This document shows, in pieces, positions 948 through 8,543 of a DNA stretch of 35,699 bases. The first letter of the stretch is position 1. Every line of letters begins with the position of its first letter. Below the pieces are notes generated by a model, which saw only the letters and a program-made list of their open reading frames with translations, was not told where the DNA came from and made no database searches. Where the stretch lies: assembly GCA_029880585.1 (NCBI GenBank), contig JAOUOC010000006.1, forward strand, positions 1 to 35,699. Direction: 5' to 3'. The translations under genes were made by a program, and so were the position numbers. Origin of the DNA: Gammaproteobacteria bacterium. GTDB taxonomy: Bacteria > Pseudomonadota > Gammaproteobacteria > Enterobacterales > Kangiellaceae.

Positions 948-2018
948 ATGTCAGAACAATCCGATTCTGAAAATAAAGAAAAAAAATTTAGCTGGTTTGG
1001 ATTAAGAAAATCTTCAAAACCGGAAGAAATTTCTGTAGAAAAACAGGAACCTCAAACCGAAGAACAAAAAGAAGCAGAAAAACTTTCATTTTTTCAAAAA
1101 TTAAGAGCAGGGCTGGCAAAAACCAGAGATCAATTTTCGCAAGGTTTGGCTGATCTGGTTCTGGGTGAAAAATCCATTGACGAAGATACGCTGGAAGAAC
1201 TGGAAACCATTTTGTTAATGGCTGATGTTGGCGTTGAAACCACTTCTACTATTATTGATCAACTGACTGATGCCGTTGATCGTAAAACCCTAAAAAATAC
1301 CAAAGAGATGGTTGATCAGCTTAAACAATCTTTATTGCAATACGCAACATCTGTGGAAGTTCCACTCTCTTTGGAAACTGAAAACAAGCCTTTTGTTATT
1401 CTGGTTGTTGGCGTAAATGGTGCTGGTAAAACGACTACCATAGGAAAAATGGCTCATCAGTTTCTTGCTCAGGGTAAAAGCGTGATGCTGGCTGCTGGTG
1501 ACACTTTCAGAGCTGCTGCCGTTGAGCAACTAAAAACCTGGGGTGACAGAAATAATGTTGCCGTTGTTGCTCAACATACTGGCGCAGACAGTGCCTCGGT
1601 TATTTTCGATGCAGTAGAATCTGCAAAAGCAAAACAAATTGATGTTGTCATTGCCGATACAGCCGGACGATTACACAACAAAAGTAATCTGATGGAAGAA
1701 TTGACCAAGGTTAAACGGGTGATGGGTAAGATTGATCCTGAAGCACCCCATGAAGTAATGTTGGTTGTTGATGGTGGAACCGGACAGAATGCGCTGGTTC
1801 AGGCTATTGAGTTTAATAAATCCGTCAAATTAACCGGAATTACCGTAACCAAACTTGATGGTACCGCCAAGGGTGGTATTATTTTTGCTCTGGCTGACAG
1901 AATGAAATTGCCTATCAGGTATATAGGTGTTGGAGAAAGCAAAACAGACTTAAGAACTTTTAATGCAGCTGAATTTGTAGAGGCGTTGTTTGAAACTGAC
2001 AGTTTAGAGTCGCAATAA
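948..2018 (+). CDS. ftsY: Signal recognition particle receptor FtsY
   Basis: FtsY is the SRP receptor GTPase that docks ribosome-SRP complexes at the inner membrane for co-translational insertion. At 356 residues it has an acidic, Lys/Glu-rich A domain (about 1-45), a helical N domain (about 46-140) and a complete NG GTPase domain. Visible motifs are the P-loop GVNGAGKTTT (155-164), DTFRAAAVEQL (185-195), DTAGRLH (237-243) and TKLDGTAKGG (301-310). The start is supported by AGGA 6 bases upstream. It opens the conserved ftsY-ftsE-ftsX-rpoH cluster, 47 bases before ftsE. Every key GTPase residue is present, so the assignment is secure. Confidence 0.97.
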   Translation: MSEQSDSENKEKKFSWFGLRKSSKPEEISVEKQEPQTEEQKEAEKLSFFQKLRAGLAKTRDQFSQGLADLVLGEKSIDEDTLEELETILLMADVGVETTSTIIDQLTDAVDRKTLKNTKEMVDQLKQSLLQYATSVEVPLSLETENKPFVILVVGVNGAGKTTTIGKMAHQFLAQGKSVMLAAGDTFRAAAVEQLKTWGDRNNVAVVAQHTGADSASVIFDAVESAKAKQIDVVIADTAGRLHNKSNLMEELTKVKRVMGKIDPEAPHEVMLVVDGGTGQNALVQAIEFNKSVKLTGITVTKLDGTAKGGIIFALADRMKLPIRYIGVGESKTDLRTFNAAEFVEALFETDSLESQ

Positions 2019-2065: not shown

Positions 2066-2758
2066 ATGATCGAATTTGTTGATGTATCCAAGCGTTATCC
2101 TAATGGTCAGGAGGCTTTAAAAAGAGTCACCTTCTCATTGGCAGACGGCGAAATGGCTTTTTTAACCGGCCATTCCGGTGCTGGCAAAAGTACCATGCTG
2201 AAGCTGATTTGTCTGATGGAGCGCGCCACTTCCGGTCAGGTCATGGTCAATAATAAAAATCTCAATCGTGTCGGTAAACGTAAAATTCCGGATGTCAGAC
2301 GTGATATTGGCATGATATTTCAGGATCATAGACTTCTGTTTGATCGTAGTGTTTTTGATAATGTCGCATTGCCATTAATGATTGCTGGTTATCCTCAAAG
2401 AGAAATTGGGCGACGTGTTAGAGCTGCATTAGATAAGGTGGGGTTATTATCTAAAGAAAAATATACACCCATTATGCTTTCCGGCGGAGAACAACAACGG
2501 GTTGGAATAGCCCGCGCCGTGGTGAACAAGCCCCCATTATTGCTGGCAGATGAGCCTACCGGAAATCTGGATCCGGAATTATCAGCAGAAATTATGAATT
2601 TGTTTAAACAGTTTAATCAGGTTGGCGTAAGTCTTTTGATTGCTTCCCATGATTTGAGTCTGATAGCTCAAATGCATTACCGAACGCTGGTAATGAAAGA
2701 CGGACTACTTCATCAGGATAGAAGAGCTGAGAATTATTTTGAGGAGGATGTGTTATGA
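2066..2758 (+). CDS. ftsE: Cell-division ABC transporter ATPase FtsE
   Basis: FtsE is the cytoplasmic ATPase of the FtsEX complex, which couples ATP hydrolysis to activation of septal peptidoglycan hydrolases through EnvC-type partners. The 230-residue protein has Walker [10 protein letters not shown] (35-43), Q-loop Gln86, signature LSGGEQQR (138-145), Walker B LLLADE (158-163) and H-loop His195, all intact. Length and the [11 protein letters not shown] start match the family. The ribosome site before the ATG is weak. Its stop overlaps the ftsX start by 4 bases, which suggests translational coupling. Confidence 0.96.
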
Positions 2759-3729
2759 GTCAGGATACTCTAACCGGCGCACGTTTTTCTCAAGGTGCGA
2801 CCTTTAGTGCAAAGTTAAGCATGTGGTTTCGATTGCATCGAATTGAATCAAAACGAGGAATAAAGGATATATTCAGCAACCCTGTTTCCAACTTTATGAC
2901 GGTACTGGTGATAGCAATTGCCCTGGCTTTACCGACCGGCTTGCATATCTTTTTACAAAATGGTCAAACTCTTTTCCAAAATTGGGATGGTGTCAGTCGA
3001 ATTTCACTTTTTCTTAAATCAGAAGTTTCTGACAATCGCTTGCAGCAATTGGCCAAAGAAATTGAAGTAAGAAAAGATGTCGCCAAAGTGACTGTCATCA
3101 GCAAAACACAAGCCCTCGAAGATTTTAAGCAAACCTCCGGTTTTTCAGAAGCGATTGATCAATTGGATATTAATCCTCTGCCCGCTGTTATTGAAATACA
3201 GCCTGCTGGAAATGTCATTTCTCCTGAAGCATCAGATGCCATGTTGCAGTCATTAAAAGCATTACCTGAAGTTGAAATCGCAAAACTGGATCTGGAATGG
3301 GTCAGAAGACTACATGCTATCTTGCAATTTGCAGAAAAAATTGCAGCCGCTTTAAGTCTAGCTTTGGCAGCTTCGGTTTTATTAATTGTTGGTAATACCA
3401 TAAGACTTTCAGTGCAAAACAGGCGAGAAGAAATTGAAATCGTAAAACTGGTTGGTGCAACCGATGCTTTCATTCGAAGACCATTTTTGTACACTGGTTT
3501 TTGGTATGGTTTATTGGCTGGTGTCTGCTGCTGGGTTTTAATCAGTGGCTCACTCTATTGGCTGGATGATTCTATTCGCTTACTGGCTTCTGAATACAAA
3601 AGCCAATTTCAACTGCAAGGGCTAAATCTGGTTCAAAATCTACAGTTAATTGGGGTTGCCTGCTTTCTAGGCTTGCTAGGCTCATGGCTTAGTGTTGGTC
3701 GACATATCAGACAAATAGAACCGCGCTGA
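2755..3729 (+). CDS. ftsX: Cell-division ABC transporter membrane subunit FtsX
   Basis: FtsX is the membrane partner of FtsE and passes the ATPase signal to periplasmic hydrolase activators. The 324-residue protein has a cytoplasmic N-terminus, a first membrane helix (about 47-67), a periplasmic domain (about 68-185) and three further helices (about 195-216, 247-270, 295-313). A basic loop, NRREEIEIVKLVGATD, follows the second helix; this is the typical FtsX/MacB-like signature. The ATG overlaps the ftsE stop and has a strong AGGAGG ribosome site inside ftsE. No convincing terminator follows. The rpoH regulatory region begins about 60 bases downstream. Confidence 0.95.
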   Translation: MSQDTLTGARFSQGATFSAKLSMWFRLHRIESKRGIKDIFSNPVSNFMTVLVIAIALALPTGLHIFLQNGQTLFQNWDGVSRISLFLKSEVSDNRLQQLAKEIEVRKDVAKVTVISKTQALEDFKQTSGFSEAIDQLDINPLPAVIEIQPAGNVISPEASDAMLQSLKALPEVEIAKLDLEWVRRLHAILQFAEKIAAALSLALAASVLLIVGNTIRLSVQNRREEIEIVKLVGATDAFIRRPFLYTGFWYGLLAGVCCWVLISGSLYWLDDSIRLLASEYKSQFQLQGLNLVQNLQLIGVACFLGLLGSWLSVGRHIRQIEPR

Positions 3730-3786
3730 TAGCTGGTTTCTGTAGCTTTTATTTACAAATATCCTGTTTCAAATCTTTGAACTTTG

Positions 3787-3792
3787 TATAAA
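3787..3792 (+). promoter_or_regulatory. Candidate -10 box of the rpoH promoter
   Basis: TATAAA lies immediately before the first CIRCE element. No good -35 is found 16-18 bases upstream (TGTTTC at 3764-3769 is poor). Its position would place the start of transcription inside the first CIRCE, the usual geometry of HrcA-repressed promoters. Confidence 0.45.
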
Positions 3793-3793
3793 A

Positions 3794-3820
3794 TTAGCAC
3801 TCTCATAGACAAAGTGCTAA
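3794..3820 (+). promoter_or_regulatory. CIRCE element 1 (HrcA operator) upstream of rpoH
   Basis: TTAGCACTC (3794-3802), nine bases, then AAGTGCTAA (3812-3820). This matches the CIRCE consensus TTAGCACTC-N9-GAGTGCTAA at 17 of 18 arm positions, with the exact 9-base spacer. It starts one base after a TATAAA box, so bound HrcA would cover the likely start site. Confidence 0.87.
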
Positions 3821-3826
3821 AAAATG

Positions 3827-3853
3827 TTAGCACTCTACGAAAAAGAGTGCTAA
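3827..3853 (+). promoter_or_regulatory. CIRCE element 2 (HrcA operator), perfect match, upstream of rpoH
   Basis: TTAGCACTC (3827-3835), nine bases, then GAGTGCTAA (3845-3853): all 18 arm positions of the CIRCE consensus are matched. It begins 33 bases after the start of element 1, close to three helical turns, so both would lie on the same face of the DNA. It ends 57 bases before the rpoH ATG. Confidence 0.93.
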
Positions 3854-3910
3854 ACTAGCACCATTAAACTGGAACAATAATCATTCGGATTTCAGTACAG
3901 GAGATAATTT

Positions 3911-4756
3911 ATGACTAAATCACTAGCGCCCTTGGCAATGTCTGTCCCACAAGGCAATATTGAAGCCTATGTGACAGCCATTCATTCTGTGCCTATTTTA
4001 TCGGCTGAAGAAGAAAGAGAGCTGGCGTTGAAATATAAAGATCATGATGATTTAAATGCTGTCAGGGAATTAATTCTTTCTCATCTTCGTTTTGTGGTTC
4101 ATATAGCCAGAAGCTATTCAGGTTACGGACTGCCACAAGCCGATTTGATCCAGGAAGGCAATGTTGGCCTGATGAAAGCTGTCAAGCGCTTTGATCCTGA
4201 GGTCGGTGTCAGATTAATTTCTTTTGCGGTTCATTGGATCAAGGCTGAAATTCACGAGTTTGTATTAAGAAACTGGCGAATTGTTAAGGTTGCAACCACC
4301 AAAGCGCAACGAAAACTGTTTTTTAATTTACGCAGCCAGAAAAAATCATTGAACTGGTTAAATAATGATGAAGTCAAGGCAGTTGCTGAAGATTTGGGAG
4401 TACCTGAAGCTGAAGTAAGACAAATGGAAAGTCGCTTGAATGCCAGAGATGCTTCTTTCGATATGCCTGCAGATGCTGATGATGATTCAACCTTTGCGCC
4501 TGAATCCTTTCTTGAATCAGAGAATGACCCAGCACTTGCTGTAGAAAAAAACAATTGGGATGAGCACCATAGCCAAAGATTGTCTAATGCAATGCAGACT
4601 CTGGATCAAAGAAGTCGTGAAATTCTTGCGGCAAGATGGTTATCTGAAGATAAAGCAACATTGCATGAGCTGGCTGACAGATATGAAATCTCAGCGGAAC
4701 GGATCAGACAATTGGAATCCAATGCTTTAAACAAACTCAAATCCGCTATGTTGTAA
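3911..4756 (+). CDS. rpoH: Heat-shock sigma factor RpoH (sigma-32)
   Basis: RpoH directs RNA polymerase to heat-shock promoters for chaperones and proteases. The 281-residue protein has core-binding region 2.2 ([15 protein letters not shown] from 81), the DNA-melting region (about 100-130), the RpoH-box QRKLFFNLR (133-141) that separates sigma-32 from other sigma-70 relatives, and a region 4 helix-turn-helix (about 245-275, [19 protein letters not shown]). Length and order are typical. AGGAG lies 8 bases before the ATG. It follows ftsX as in many gammaproteobacteria, but its 181-base upstream gap holds two CIRCE operators, so HrcA repression is likely added to the usual post-transcriptional control. 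A bidirectional terminator follows. Confidence 0.97.
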
Positions 4757-5834: not shown

Positions 5835-6053
5835 ATGAAAAAATTTAAAAGTTTAATATTACTATCCGCTGTATTGTTGTTTTCCTGTGGTCAAAAAGGT
5901 GATTTGATTATTGAGGATGATCCTCACATCAAAACAATGAAAGATAACAAGTCAGATAATACGAATTCTGATATCCCTTTATCAATCGACACTCCTACGA
6001 ACAAAACCATATCACTCAAAGGTAAATCTGCTCAAAAAGGTGAGCAGTTATGA
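5835..6053 (+). CDS. lptM: Small lipoprotein, LptM (YifL)-like
   Basis: The 72-residue protein has a signal peptide ending in the lipobox LFSC with Cys18, followed by GQKGDL. This closely resembles the CG-K-GPL start of mature LptM, which helps the LptD/LptE lipopolysaccharide translocon mature by assisting disulfide rearrangement in the outer membrane. The usual Pro is Asp here. The rest is polar and low in complexity, as in relatives. The residue after Cys18 is Gly, not Asp, consistent with sorting to the outer membrane. Its stop overlaps the dapF start; gammaproteobacterial lptM genes often sit before lysA/dapF. No good ribosome site is visible before the ATG. Confidence 0.75.
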   Translation: MKKFKSLILLSAVLLFSCGQKGDLIIEDDPHIKTMKDNKSDNTNSDIPLSIDTPTNKTISLKGKSAQKGEQL

Positions 6054-6880
6054 TGTTAGGTTTCGCCAAGATGCATGGGCTAGGTAACGACTTTATGGTT
6101 GTGGATGGCGTTTCACAACAAATCTTTTTTAGTGAAGGCCAGATAAAAAAACTGGCTGACCGCAATCGCGGTGTCGGCTTTGACCAACTATTGCTTGTTG
6201 AGCCACCTCAGCAACCAGATGTGGATTTTCATTATCGCATTTTTAACGCTGATGGCAGAGAAGTTGAACAATGCGGAAACGGAGCGCGATGTCTGGCAAG
6301 ATTTGTTAGACATTTGGGGCTGACATGGAAAAATAAAATTCGTGTTAGTACTATCAACGGATTAATGAATCTTCATATTTTGCGTAATGGTCTGGTTAGT
6401 GTTGAAATGGGTGTACCAAAGCTGGAGCCTCACGATGTGCCCCTGAACCAGTCGGAGGAGGCAGAAAGTTATCAGATTGAAATTCAAAACAAATCCCTTT
6501 CATTTGGTGCTGTTTCCATGGGCAATCCCCATTGTGTCATCACTGTTGATGATGTACAAAAAGCTGATGTTCAGGGTATTGGAAGCCAATTAGAGAGACA
6601 TCAATTATTTCCGCAAGGTGCTAACATTAATTTCATGCAAATTGTTGCAAGAGATGAAATCAGATTGAGGGTTTTTGAGCGTGGCGTAGGAGAAACATTG
6701 GCTTGTGGAAGTGGGGCATGCGCCAGTGCGGTTATTGCCAATATTCAAAACAAAACCGATAAAAGGGTTAAAGTTTATTTGCCAGGCGGCCATTTACATA
6801 TAGAATGGAATGGCAGGGGAGAAATTCTTAAAATGATGGGACCAGCCGAATTAGTTTATCAGGGGTATATAGAACTATGA
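6050..6880 (+). CDS. dapF: Diaminopimelate epimerase
   Basis: DapF converts LL- to meso-diaminopimelate, the precursor of lysine and the peptidoglycan cross-link residue. The 276-residue protein starts with FAKMHGLGNDFMVVD and has both catalytic cysteines: Cys75 in EQCGNGARC and Cys219 in LACGSGAC. The substrate motif GNPHCV is at 158-163. Two consecutive ATG codons (6050 and 6053) could start it; the first overlaps the lptM stop, with AGGTGA upstream. lysA, often found between lptM and dapF, is absent. The downstream DUF484 gene overlaps by 4 bases. Confidence 0.96.
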   Translation: MMLGFAKMHGLGNDFMVVDGVSQQIFFSEGQIKKLADRNRGVGFDQLLLVEPPQQPDVDFHYRIFNADGREVEQCGNGARCLARFVRHLGLTWKNKIRVSTINGLMNLHILRNGLVSVEMGVPKLEPHDVPLNQSEEAESYQIEIQNKSLSFGAVSMGNPHCVITVDDVQKADVQGIGSQLERHQLFPQGANINFMQIVARDEIRLRVFERGVGETLACGSGACASAVIANIQNKTDKRVKVYLPGGHLHIEWNGRGEILKMMGPAELVYQGYIEL

Positions 6881-7599
6881 AAATATCAAATCCGCAACTA
6901 CTGGAAGAAGTCAGAAAAAACAAAATCAAGCAGCTAATGGATGAAGCACAAGTCAAAGATTATTTGGCAAATCATCCAGATTTTTTAAAGAATAACCCGC
7001 AGTTGCTCGCACACATGGAATTTTCTACTAACGATTCCACTATATCATCTCTGGTTGAACATCAGATCAAGGTTCTAAGAGAACGCAATCAGTCGCTTCA
7101 GGGACAACTGATAGAAATGCTCCGGTCTGCTCACAACAATGAAGAACTATTACTAAGATGTAATCAATTTATGTTGGATATTCTTGAAGCAAAATCACTA
7201 AAAGAATTGAGCGCAAAGATAATCAATGCTTTGAAAAAGGATTTTGATCTGGACGGCGCAGCGCTTGTGTTAGTGGGTGAATATAAATCCGCCTCAGCTC
7301 CAGCGCAAATCGTTTCAGATGCAAAAGACATTAAAGCCATGCTAAATTGTCATTTCCCGGATAATCAGACTTTATGTGGCCGACTGGGTTCTGAAGTTAA
7401 AGTTAAACTATTCGGTGATATGGGCAGAGACCTTCAATCCTTTGCTTTGGTTCCATTGGGCGACAAATGTGAAAGTGGACTTTTGGCATTAGCCAGTAAG
7501 GAAGTTGATCGCTTTGAGCCGCATATGGGAACCTTGTTTGTTGAACTCATTGCAAAACTGGTTGAACATCTCACTGACACGTATAAAAAGGTGACTTAA
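6877..7599 (+). CDS. yigA: DUF484 family protein (YigA-like)
   Basis: This 240-residue cytoplasmic protein belongs to the DUF484 family by position (between dapF and xerC) and by its N-terminal motif VKDYLANHPDFLKNNPQLL (27-45). A helical or coiled segment follows (about 60-100), then a region I read as GAF-like (about 105-235). The family's molecular function is not established; genetic linkage with xerC and dapF is all that is firmly known to me. The ATG overlaps the dapF stop in an ATGA arrangement. Met21 is a possible shorter start. Confidence 0.88.
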   Translation: MKISNPQLLEEVRKNKIKQLMDEAQVKDYLANHPDFLKNNPQLLAHMEFSTNDSTISSLVEHQIKVLRERNQSLQGQLIEMLRSAHNNEELLLRCNQFMLDILEAKSLKELSAKIINALKKDFDLDGAALVLVGEYKSASAPAQIVSDAKDIKAMLNCHFPDNQTLCGRLGSEVKVKLFGDMGRDLQSFALVPLGDKCESGLLALASKEVDRFEPHMGTLFVELIAKLVEHLTDTYKKVT

Positions 7600-7610
7600 A
7601 ACAGCATATC

Positions 7611-8543
7611 ATGGAAGCTGAAGATAACAATTCTACAAATTATCCTGAAGGCTTAACCTCCCCTGTTGAAAGCTTCCTCAAGCAGCTTGTAGAACAAAAA
7701 AATTATTCTCAATTAACCCAGTCAAATTATCAGCGCCAATTGGCCAAGTTGCTCCACTATGTCCATGAAAACTCGATAGAAAAATGGAGCTACTTAAAAA
7801 CTCAGGATGTTAGACAGTTTATTGCCAAATGTCATCGGCAAGGACTTTCTGCAAAGTCACTTGCCCTTTTACTTTCCTCTATAAGAAGTTTTTTTGTTTT
7901 TTTAATTGAAAATAATATGGCTAAAATCAACCCCGCAAAGGGTATCAAGTCACCCAAAGCGGGTAAGCGATTACCAAAAACTATAGAAATTGAACAACTG
8001 TTCCTGCTCCTTGATGAAATTGATGAGGGTGAAGATATTGGTATCAGGGATAAAGCTATTGCAGAACTATTCTACTCCAGTGGTTTACGTCTTGCAGAAT
8101 TAGTCCGACTTGATTGCCCGGATATCGATTTTAAATCAAGGCAAATAAGAGTCTTAGGTAAAGGCAATAAAAGCAGAATTGTTCCTGTAGGCCAAAAAGC
8201 ATTAACTGCAATTAAAAACTGGCTTGAGATCAGGCATGTATGGTTAAACGGTTATAACACAGAGGCGCTGTTTATTTCGGAGCAAAAGGCAAGATTGTCA
8301 CCAAGAACTATTCAACACAGAATGTCCTATTGGGGTAAAAAAGCGGGCATTAATGGGCGCATTCATCCTCACCGCTTTCGCCATTCTTGTGCGAGTCATT
8401 TGCTTGAATCTTCAGGCGACCTGAGAGCCGTTCAGGAATTGTTAGGACATTCCAATATCTCTACAACTCAAATCTACACTCATCTTGATTTTCAAAAATT
8501 GGCCAGTGTGTACGATGAAGCGCATCCTCGTGCAAAGAAATAG
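7611..8543 (+). CDS. xerC: Tyrosine recombinase XerC
   Basis: XerC acts with XerD at dif to resolve chromosome dimers, under FtsK control at the septum. The 310-residue protein has an N-terminal SAM-like core-binding domain (about 15-105) and a catalytic domain with the full set of residues: Arg160 (SSGLRLAELV), Lys184 (GKGNKSR), His254 and Arg257 (HPHRFRH), His280 (LGHSN) and nucleophile Tyr289 (TTQIYTH). It follows the DUF484 gene by 11 bases at the end of the lptM-dapF operon. The conserved position separates it from XerD and from integrases. Confidence 0.95.
   Translation: MEAEDNNSTNYPEGLTSPVESFLKQLVEQKNYSQLTQSNYQRQLAKLLHYVHENSIEKWSYLKTQDVRQFIAKCHRQGLSAKSLALLLSSIRSFFVFLIENNMAKINPAKGIKSPKAGKRLPKTIEIEQLFLLLDEIDEGEDIGIRDKAIAELFYSSGLRLAELVRLDCPDIDFKSRQIRVLGKGNKSRIVPVGQKALTAIKNWLEIRHVWLNGYNTEALFISEQKARLSPRTIQHRMSYWGKKAGINGRIHPHRFRHSCASHLLESSGDLRAVQELLGHSNISTTQIYTHLDFQKLASVYDEAHPRAKK

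Follow-up and report, generated by a model that had tools for sequence, protein, structure and literature searches.

Two CIRCE elements, predicted operators of the repressor HrcA, lie in tandem upstream of the heat-shock sigma factor gene rpoH in a Kangiellaceae genome, and comparison with related sequences shows that they are real and conserved and indicates that they are probably functional. Within our present sample, CIRCE at rpoH is confined to the Gammaproteobacteria and goes with hrcA. We consider it likely that a sigma-E-type promoter drives rpoH and is blocked by HrcA, which would couple the supply of chaperonin to the heat-shock sigma factor.

Tandem operators at rpoH in Kangiellaceae

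The stretch of DNA analyzed (the window, 35,699 bases) corresponds to contig C206 in an assembly of 2.93 Mb and 384 contigs that is approximately 92% complete. Both operators are copies of the TTAGCACTC-N9-GAGTGCTAA inverted repeat of the HrcA/CIRCE consensus, and the original prediction of two sites with 17/18 and 18/18 arm matches and exact 9-base spacers was reproduced at the positions given in Table 1. No other CIRCE match was present in the window at up to three mismatches, and 100 dinucleotide-preserving shuffles of the window gave none. The predicted distance of 57 bases between the end of the second operator and the ATG at 3911 (positions 3854–3910) agrees with the coordinates, and the gene that follows is a true rpoH by TIGR02392. 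On the plus strand no terminator was found before rpoH; the four terminator-like sites listed all lie on the minus strand. Elsewhere in the window, dapF and xerC were confirmed within 6050–8543, and a 240-aa frame between them (6877–7599) resembles, by eye, a DUF484-type protein.

Table 1. Features of the rpoH locus, in window coordinates
Feature	Position	Strand	Remarks
ftsY	948..2018		precedes ftsE; TIGR00064
ftsE and ftsX, upstream neighbours	2066..3729	+	TIGR02673 and TIGR00439 over cut-off
GAACTT, putative -35 of sigma-E-type promoter	3779..3784	+	starts 15 bases before CIRCE1
TATAAA	3787..3792	+	promoter box of the original prediction; probably incidental
CIRCE1, HrcA operator (predicted)	3794..3820	+	17/18 arm bases; overlaps -10
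TCTCA, putative -10 of sigma-E-type promoter	3801..3805	+	16 bases after GAACTT; within CIRCE1
CIRCE2, HrcA operator (predicted)	3827..3853	+	18/18 arm bases; starts 33 bases after CIRCE1
AGGAGA, likely rpoH ribosome-binding site	3899..3904	+	by eye; 6 bases before ATG
rpoH, heat-shock sigma factor, 281 aa	3911..4756	+	TIGR02392, 407 bits, cut-off 323.1

The repressor itself is present, as HrcA control of rpoH supposes. A 362-aa frame in the same genome encodes a full-length HrcA, which scores 300.8 bits against TIGR00331 (cut-off 197.2), exceeds the cut-off of PF01628 and gives a partial match to the solved HrcA structure 1stz (residues 13–208). A search of the whole genome for CIRCE at up to three mismatches returned the two rpoH sites and none besides, and other sites may lie in the approximately 8% that the assembly is missing. 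A control with the reversed pattern gave two matches per strand at three mismatches and none at two mismatches, and three-mismatch sites alone therefore mean little. We detected no CIRCE at any chaperone operon of this genome at up to three mismatches, nor at the hrcA locus (L001) at up to four.

Within the family, hrcA was found in 34 of 37 genomes, the exceptions being G002, G013 and G021. The comparison within the family covers 35 upstream regions of rpoH, taken from 34 of the genomes; G018, G021 and G024 stand outside this count since no rpoH was obtained from them. Each of the 35 regions contains at least one CIRCE with no more than two mismatches, and two sites are present in 26/35 when up to three mismatches are allowed and in 29/35 when up to five are allowed. 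The start-to-start spacing of the tandem sites is 31 bases in 24 of these 29 loci, and the 33 bases of the window are unique. This spacing is about three helical turns, and two HrcA dimers could therefore sit on roughly the same face of the DNA. In the rest of the order (24 genomes), hrcA was found in one genome, G049, and the same genome alone showed a CIRCE at up to two mismatches. In G049 we also noted a short second match to the C-terminal part of HrcA (G049:C1:3030089–3030175; 28 profile positions, below cut-off), approximately 2.3 kb from the full hrcA. Another relative, G015, has two rpoH-like copies (L014 on G015:C30 and L246 on G015:C51) with tandem CIRCE-like sites at each; the L014 copy, at 58.6% identity by tblastn, contains no open frame of at least 150 aa and looks broken.

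The chaperonin operon of the window genome differs from that of most relatives. Its groEL is on contig C325, and a sigma-32-type promoter pattern, TTGAAC...CCCCAT, is found upstream of groES without a CIRCE; across the 4.5-kb groEL locus the best CIRCE match has 7/18 arm mismatches. In the 20 Kangiellaceae genomes where groEL was sought, 16, G001 among them, have a CIRCE at groESL at up to three mismatches, and in G011 both arms are present, by eye, with an 8-base spacer. The site is absent from three of the 20, namely the window genome (G000), in which hrcA is present, and G002 and G013, both without a detected hrcA; the sigma-32-type pattern persists in each of the three. In several relatives, including G004 (L127), G006 (L122) and G003 (L132), the sigma-32-type -35 at groESL, GGGGTTGAG, lies within the spacer and right arm of the CIRCE; HrcA and RNA polymerase with sigma-32 would thus be rivals for these bases.

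The loss of the groESL site in the window genome lends something to the view that the rpoH sites too are relics, at which HrcA binds weakly or not at all while control of rpoH is post-transcriptional as in E. coli, a mode of sigma-32 control that is well established elsewhere. We regard this as improbable, as the rpoH sites stand at one and zero mismatches alongside a full-length HrcA, whereas the hrcA-less G002 and G013 each retain a single rpoH CIRCE with two mismatches and have lost the groESL site. Such single, imperfect sites are expected if HrcA maintains the operators. G002 (98% complete) and G013 (100% complete) are natural cases of HrcA loss with decayed groESL CIRCE (loci L007, L133, L186 and L120). 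A case that counts against the tie between CIRCE and hrcA is G021, in which hrcA was not found, yet the groESL CIRCE is intact; hrcA may be absent there merely because the assembly is 95% complete.

Distribution of CIRCE at rpoH

In 276 gammaproteobacterial genomes, drawn evenly, hrcA was found in 205. We sampled rpoH in 35 of these 205 (30 plus a further 5) and in 17 of the 71 hrcA-negative genomes. The first hrcA-positive sample comprised 30 genomes from 30 families, of which 27 yielded rpoH and three gave none at E 1e-60. A CIRCE at up to three mismatches was present within 400 bases upstream of rpoH in 24 of the 27, as against 0/17 hrcA-negative genomes searched with the same limits and 0/5400 base-shuffled rpoH upstream regions. 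The five additional genomes, among them a pair from a single family and one whose family had been sampled before, had a CIRCE at rpoH in four cases. Pooled, the counts are 28/32 for hrcA-positive and 0/17 for hrcA-negative genomes (Fisher p 9e-10, relatedness ignored), with G049, which has both hrcA and a CIRCE at rpoH, excluded from the 28/32. The remaining four of the 32 have hrcA and no CIRCE at rpoH, and count against our preferred reading. The arrangement is nonetheless the usual one, both in the hrcA-positive Gammaproteobacteria sampled and throughout the 35 Kangiellaceae loci.

Beyond the Gammaproteobacteria, we read 20 rpoH regions of further classes in the phylum, 16 belonging to genomes with hrcA; none contained a CIRCE at up to four mismatches within the 550 bases covered. 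Among 80 named rpoH loci, taken irrespective of hrcA status, 19 have a CIRCE within 200 bases upstream; these include Ketobacter, Haliea, Halioglobus, Woeseiaceae and two Pseudoalteromonas.

The palindromes could also act mainly in RNA, with a CIRCE2 hairpin in the rpoH leader affecting mRNA stability or translation. The minimum-energy structure of the leader does contain the CIRCE2 hairpin, and the fold is more stable than those of shuffled sequences (z -2.31; 7/200 shuffles as stable). We nevertheless hold a main role in RNA to be very improbable: the two arms follow the HrcA consensus at the level of single bases, beyond what a hairpin needs, the ribosome-binding site lies 45 bases past CIRCE2, and the presence of CIRCE at rpoH tracks that of hrcA in the pooled counts above.

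A probable promoter beneath the operators

We aligned 40 rpoH loci from outside the Kangiellaceae on their CIRCE, a set later extended by four to 44. Both sets draw on mixed sources, and families may repeat in them; L068 and L090, near copies of L056 and L088, and the Kangiellaceae rows L033 and L034 were left out. Three conserved blocks stand out beside the arms. GAAC[TC] starts 14–16 bases before the CIRCE in 29/40 loci, while any other offset occurs at most twice; spacer bases 10–12 are T, A and A in 25, 25 and 32 of 40 loci; and the three bases that follow the right arm are A, A and T in 27, 31 and 36 of 40. The consensus for sigma-E promoters pairs a GAACTT-type -35 with a TCNNA-type -10 at a distance of 15–18 bases. 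Taken together, the GAAC[TC] and spacer blocks read GAACTT-N16-TCTAA, arranged like a sigma-E promoter whose -10 falls within the operator. The full sigma-E-type pattern overlaps the CIRCE in 29/44 loci; when the 60 upstream bases were shuffled 1000 times, the mean was 0.17 loci and the largest count 3.

The window conforms to this layout with GAACTT-N16-TCTCA at 3779–3805, and we conclude that the rpoH promoter here is probably of the sigma-E type. In the Kangiellaceae, 24 of the 35 rpoH loci have [GA]AAC[TC] starting 15 or 16 bases ahead of the first CIRCE. The 11 with no -35 at this position count against the sigma-E reading; seven of them show a GAAACTT...CTCTTA pair instead, no more than 60 bases upstream. 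The strict sigma-E-type pattern is also found in rpoH regions that have no CIRCE, in 26 of 61 named loci as against 0.43 by shuffling, and in only 2 of the 17 hrcA-negative regions as against 0.25, a low count that also speaks against our reading.

The original prediction had placed the operators just after a TATAAA box and implied that this was the promoter. That part did not stand: TATAAA occurs within 12 bases of the first CIRCE in one of the 35 Kangiellaceae loci, that of the window itself, as against 24/35 for the [GA]AAC[TC] block, and we rejected it as the main promoter. HrcA control of rpoH, the core of the prediction, is well supported by comparison, through the presence of hrcA, the conservation of the sites and the co-occurrence of the two.

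A related possibility is that HrcA represses rpoH and the main promoter is of the sigma-70 type, the GAACTT block being secondary, with a -10 formed either by TATAAA at 3787 or, in the manner of many loci outside the Kangiellaceae, by the right arm and the AAT that follows it there (TGCTAAAAT, a possible extended -10). The preference for A, A and T after the right arm outside the Kangiellaceae speaks for this, all the more as the third-base T follows the right arm in only 2/16 groESL sites; so do the 15 of 44 loci that have no sigma-E-type pattern, which count directly against the sigma-E reading. The window, however, has ACT after CIRCE2, a scan for sigma-70-type patterns found nothing at the operators (two promoter-like sites elsewhere, with a mean of 2.2 in shuffles), and TATAAA near CIRCE1 is confined to a single Kangiellaceae locus. 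On balance we think a main sigma-70 promoter rather unlikely and retain the sigma-E-type promoter.

The genome has the genes of a sigma-E system, with an rpoE above the cut-off of TIGR02939 and RseA_N and RseC_MucC domains beside it. rpoE, rseA and rseC are adjacent at L245 (G000:C294, 1108–3070), and an rseB-like frame is absent between rseA and rseC. The rpoE locus has a sigma-E-type motif within rpoE and another between that gene and rseA; the 200 bases upstream of rpoE showed the motif in none of four Kangiellaceae relatives, so that these regions did not bear out the sigma-E specificity of the family.

A proposed circuit and its relation to known systems

From the arrangement of sites and genes we infer HrcA binding, repression, use of the sigma-E promoter and GroEL feedback at this rpoH. 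In the unstressed cell, HrcA activated by GroEL would occupy CIRCE1, in the -10 region, and CIRCE2, just downstream, block the polymerase and keep transcription of rpoH low. Once misfolded proteins tie up GroEL, HrcA would come off the DNA and the rpoH promoter would become usable, with its output highest when sigma-E is active as well. Sigma-32 would in turn direct transcription of groESL and other chaperone genes, and the new GroEL would re-activate HrcA and close the loop. Such a feedback loop of HrcA, rpoH and GroEL is plausible, and it is simpler than that of the original prediction because a sigma-32-type promoter stands at groESL with no CIRCE beside it; HrcA would thus reach groESL only through rpoH. 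The layout of the promoter is what suggests an input of envelope stress via sigma-E.

Accounts of the heat-shock response commonly treat repression by HrcA and activation by sigma-32 as distinct routes, and place most of the control of rpoH at steps after transcription, a picture drawn from E. coli. The arrangement described here suggests that the two systems probably act in series. Should most Gammaproteobacteria that retain HrcA use it to control rpoH, the cell would gauge its chaperonin capacity when rpoH is transcribed, and a single promoter would combine this signal with envelope stress; the scheme known from E. coli may then be derived. We offer tentatively, as a reading that may well prove too broad, that HrcA-bearing Gammaproteobacteria share one such hierarchy, in which the operator-embedded -10 would require both envelope stress and a shortage of free chaperonin; the E. 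coli scheme would be the remnant after loss of hrcA and CIRCE, and in the present species the HrcA regulon would have shrunk to rpoH, so that HrcA would serve the master sigma factor alone. The predicted arrangement is specified to single bases and lends itself to testing in marine bacteria that can be cultured.

A report by Permina and Gelfand from 2003 is the likeliest earlier account of CIRCE at a gammaproteobacterial rpoH. Geobacter sulfurreducens, which belongs to a different phylum, offers a close parallel. CIRCE at rpoH itself has a precedent in that species: PMC545781 places a CIRCE 51 bases before its rpoH, in a genome that likewise has hrcA and a sigma-32 system, and gives none at rpoH for the other species in the same table. 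That rpoH site is a predicted single one, in contrast to the tandem sites overlapping a sigma-E-type promoter in the window, and G. sulfurreducens also has CIRCE at groESL and at hrcA-grpE-dnaK-dnaJ, where the groESL of the window genome has none. In the literature searched, outside which subscription papers mostly fell, the available portions gave CIRCE at rpoH in PMC545781 only and an overlap with a promoter in none. What appears to be new is the breadth, the tie to hrcA, the overlap of operator and promoter, and a groESL without CIRCE in the window genome.

Other systems share single elements of the circuit. E. coli was not among the control genomes with HrcA, and to our knowledge it lacks HrcA. 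An RpoE-type promoter at rpoH, putative in the window, is common to E. coli and the window, P3 of the E. coli gene being RpoE-dependent according to PMC8103513. The rpoH of Kosakonia (L111) has the same layout, GGAACTT...TCTGA, but no CIRCE, whereas the -10 of the window is covered by a predicted HrcA operator. For Campylobacter jejuni, PMC8533110 reports that GroE stimulates HrcA binding, and its authors invoke a titration model. The classical HrcA/CIRCE system at the groESL and dnaK operons has the same operator consensus and the same repressor family as the window, but its targets are chaperone operons, whereas the predicted target here is the gene for a sigma factor.
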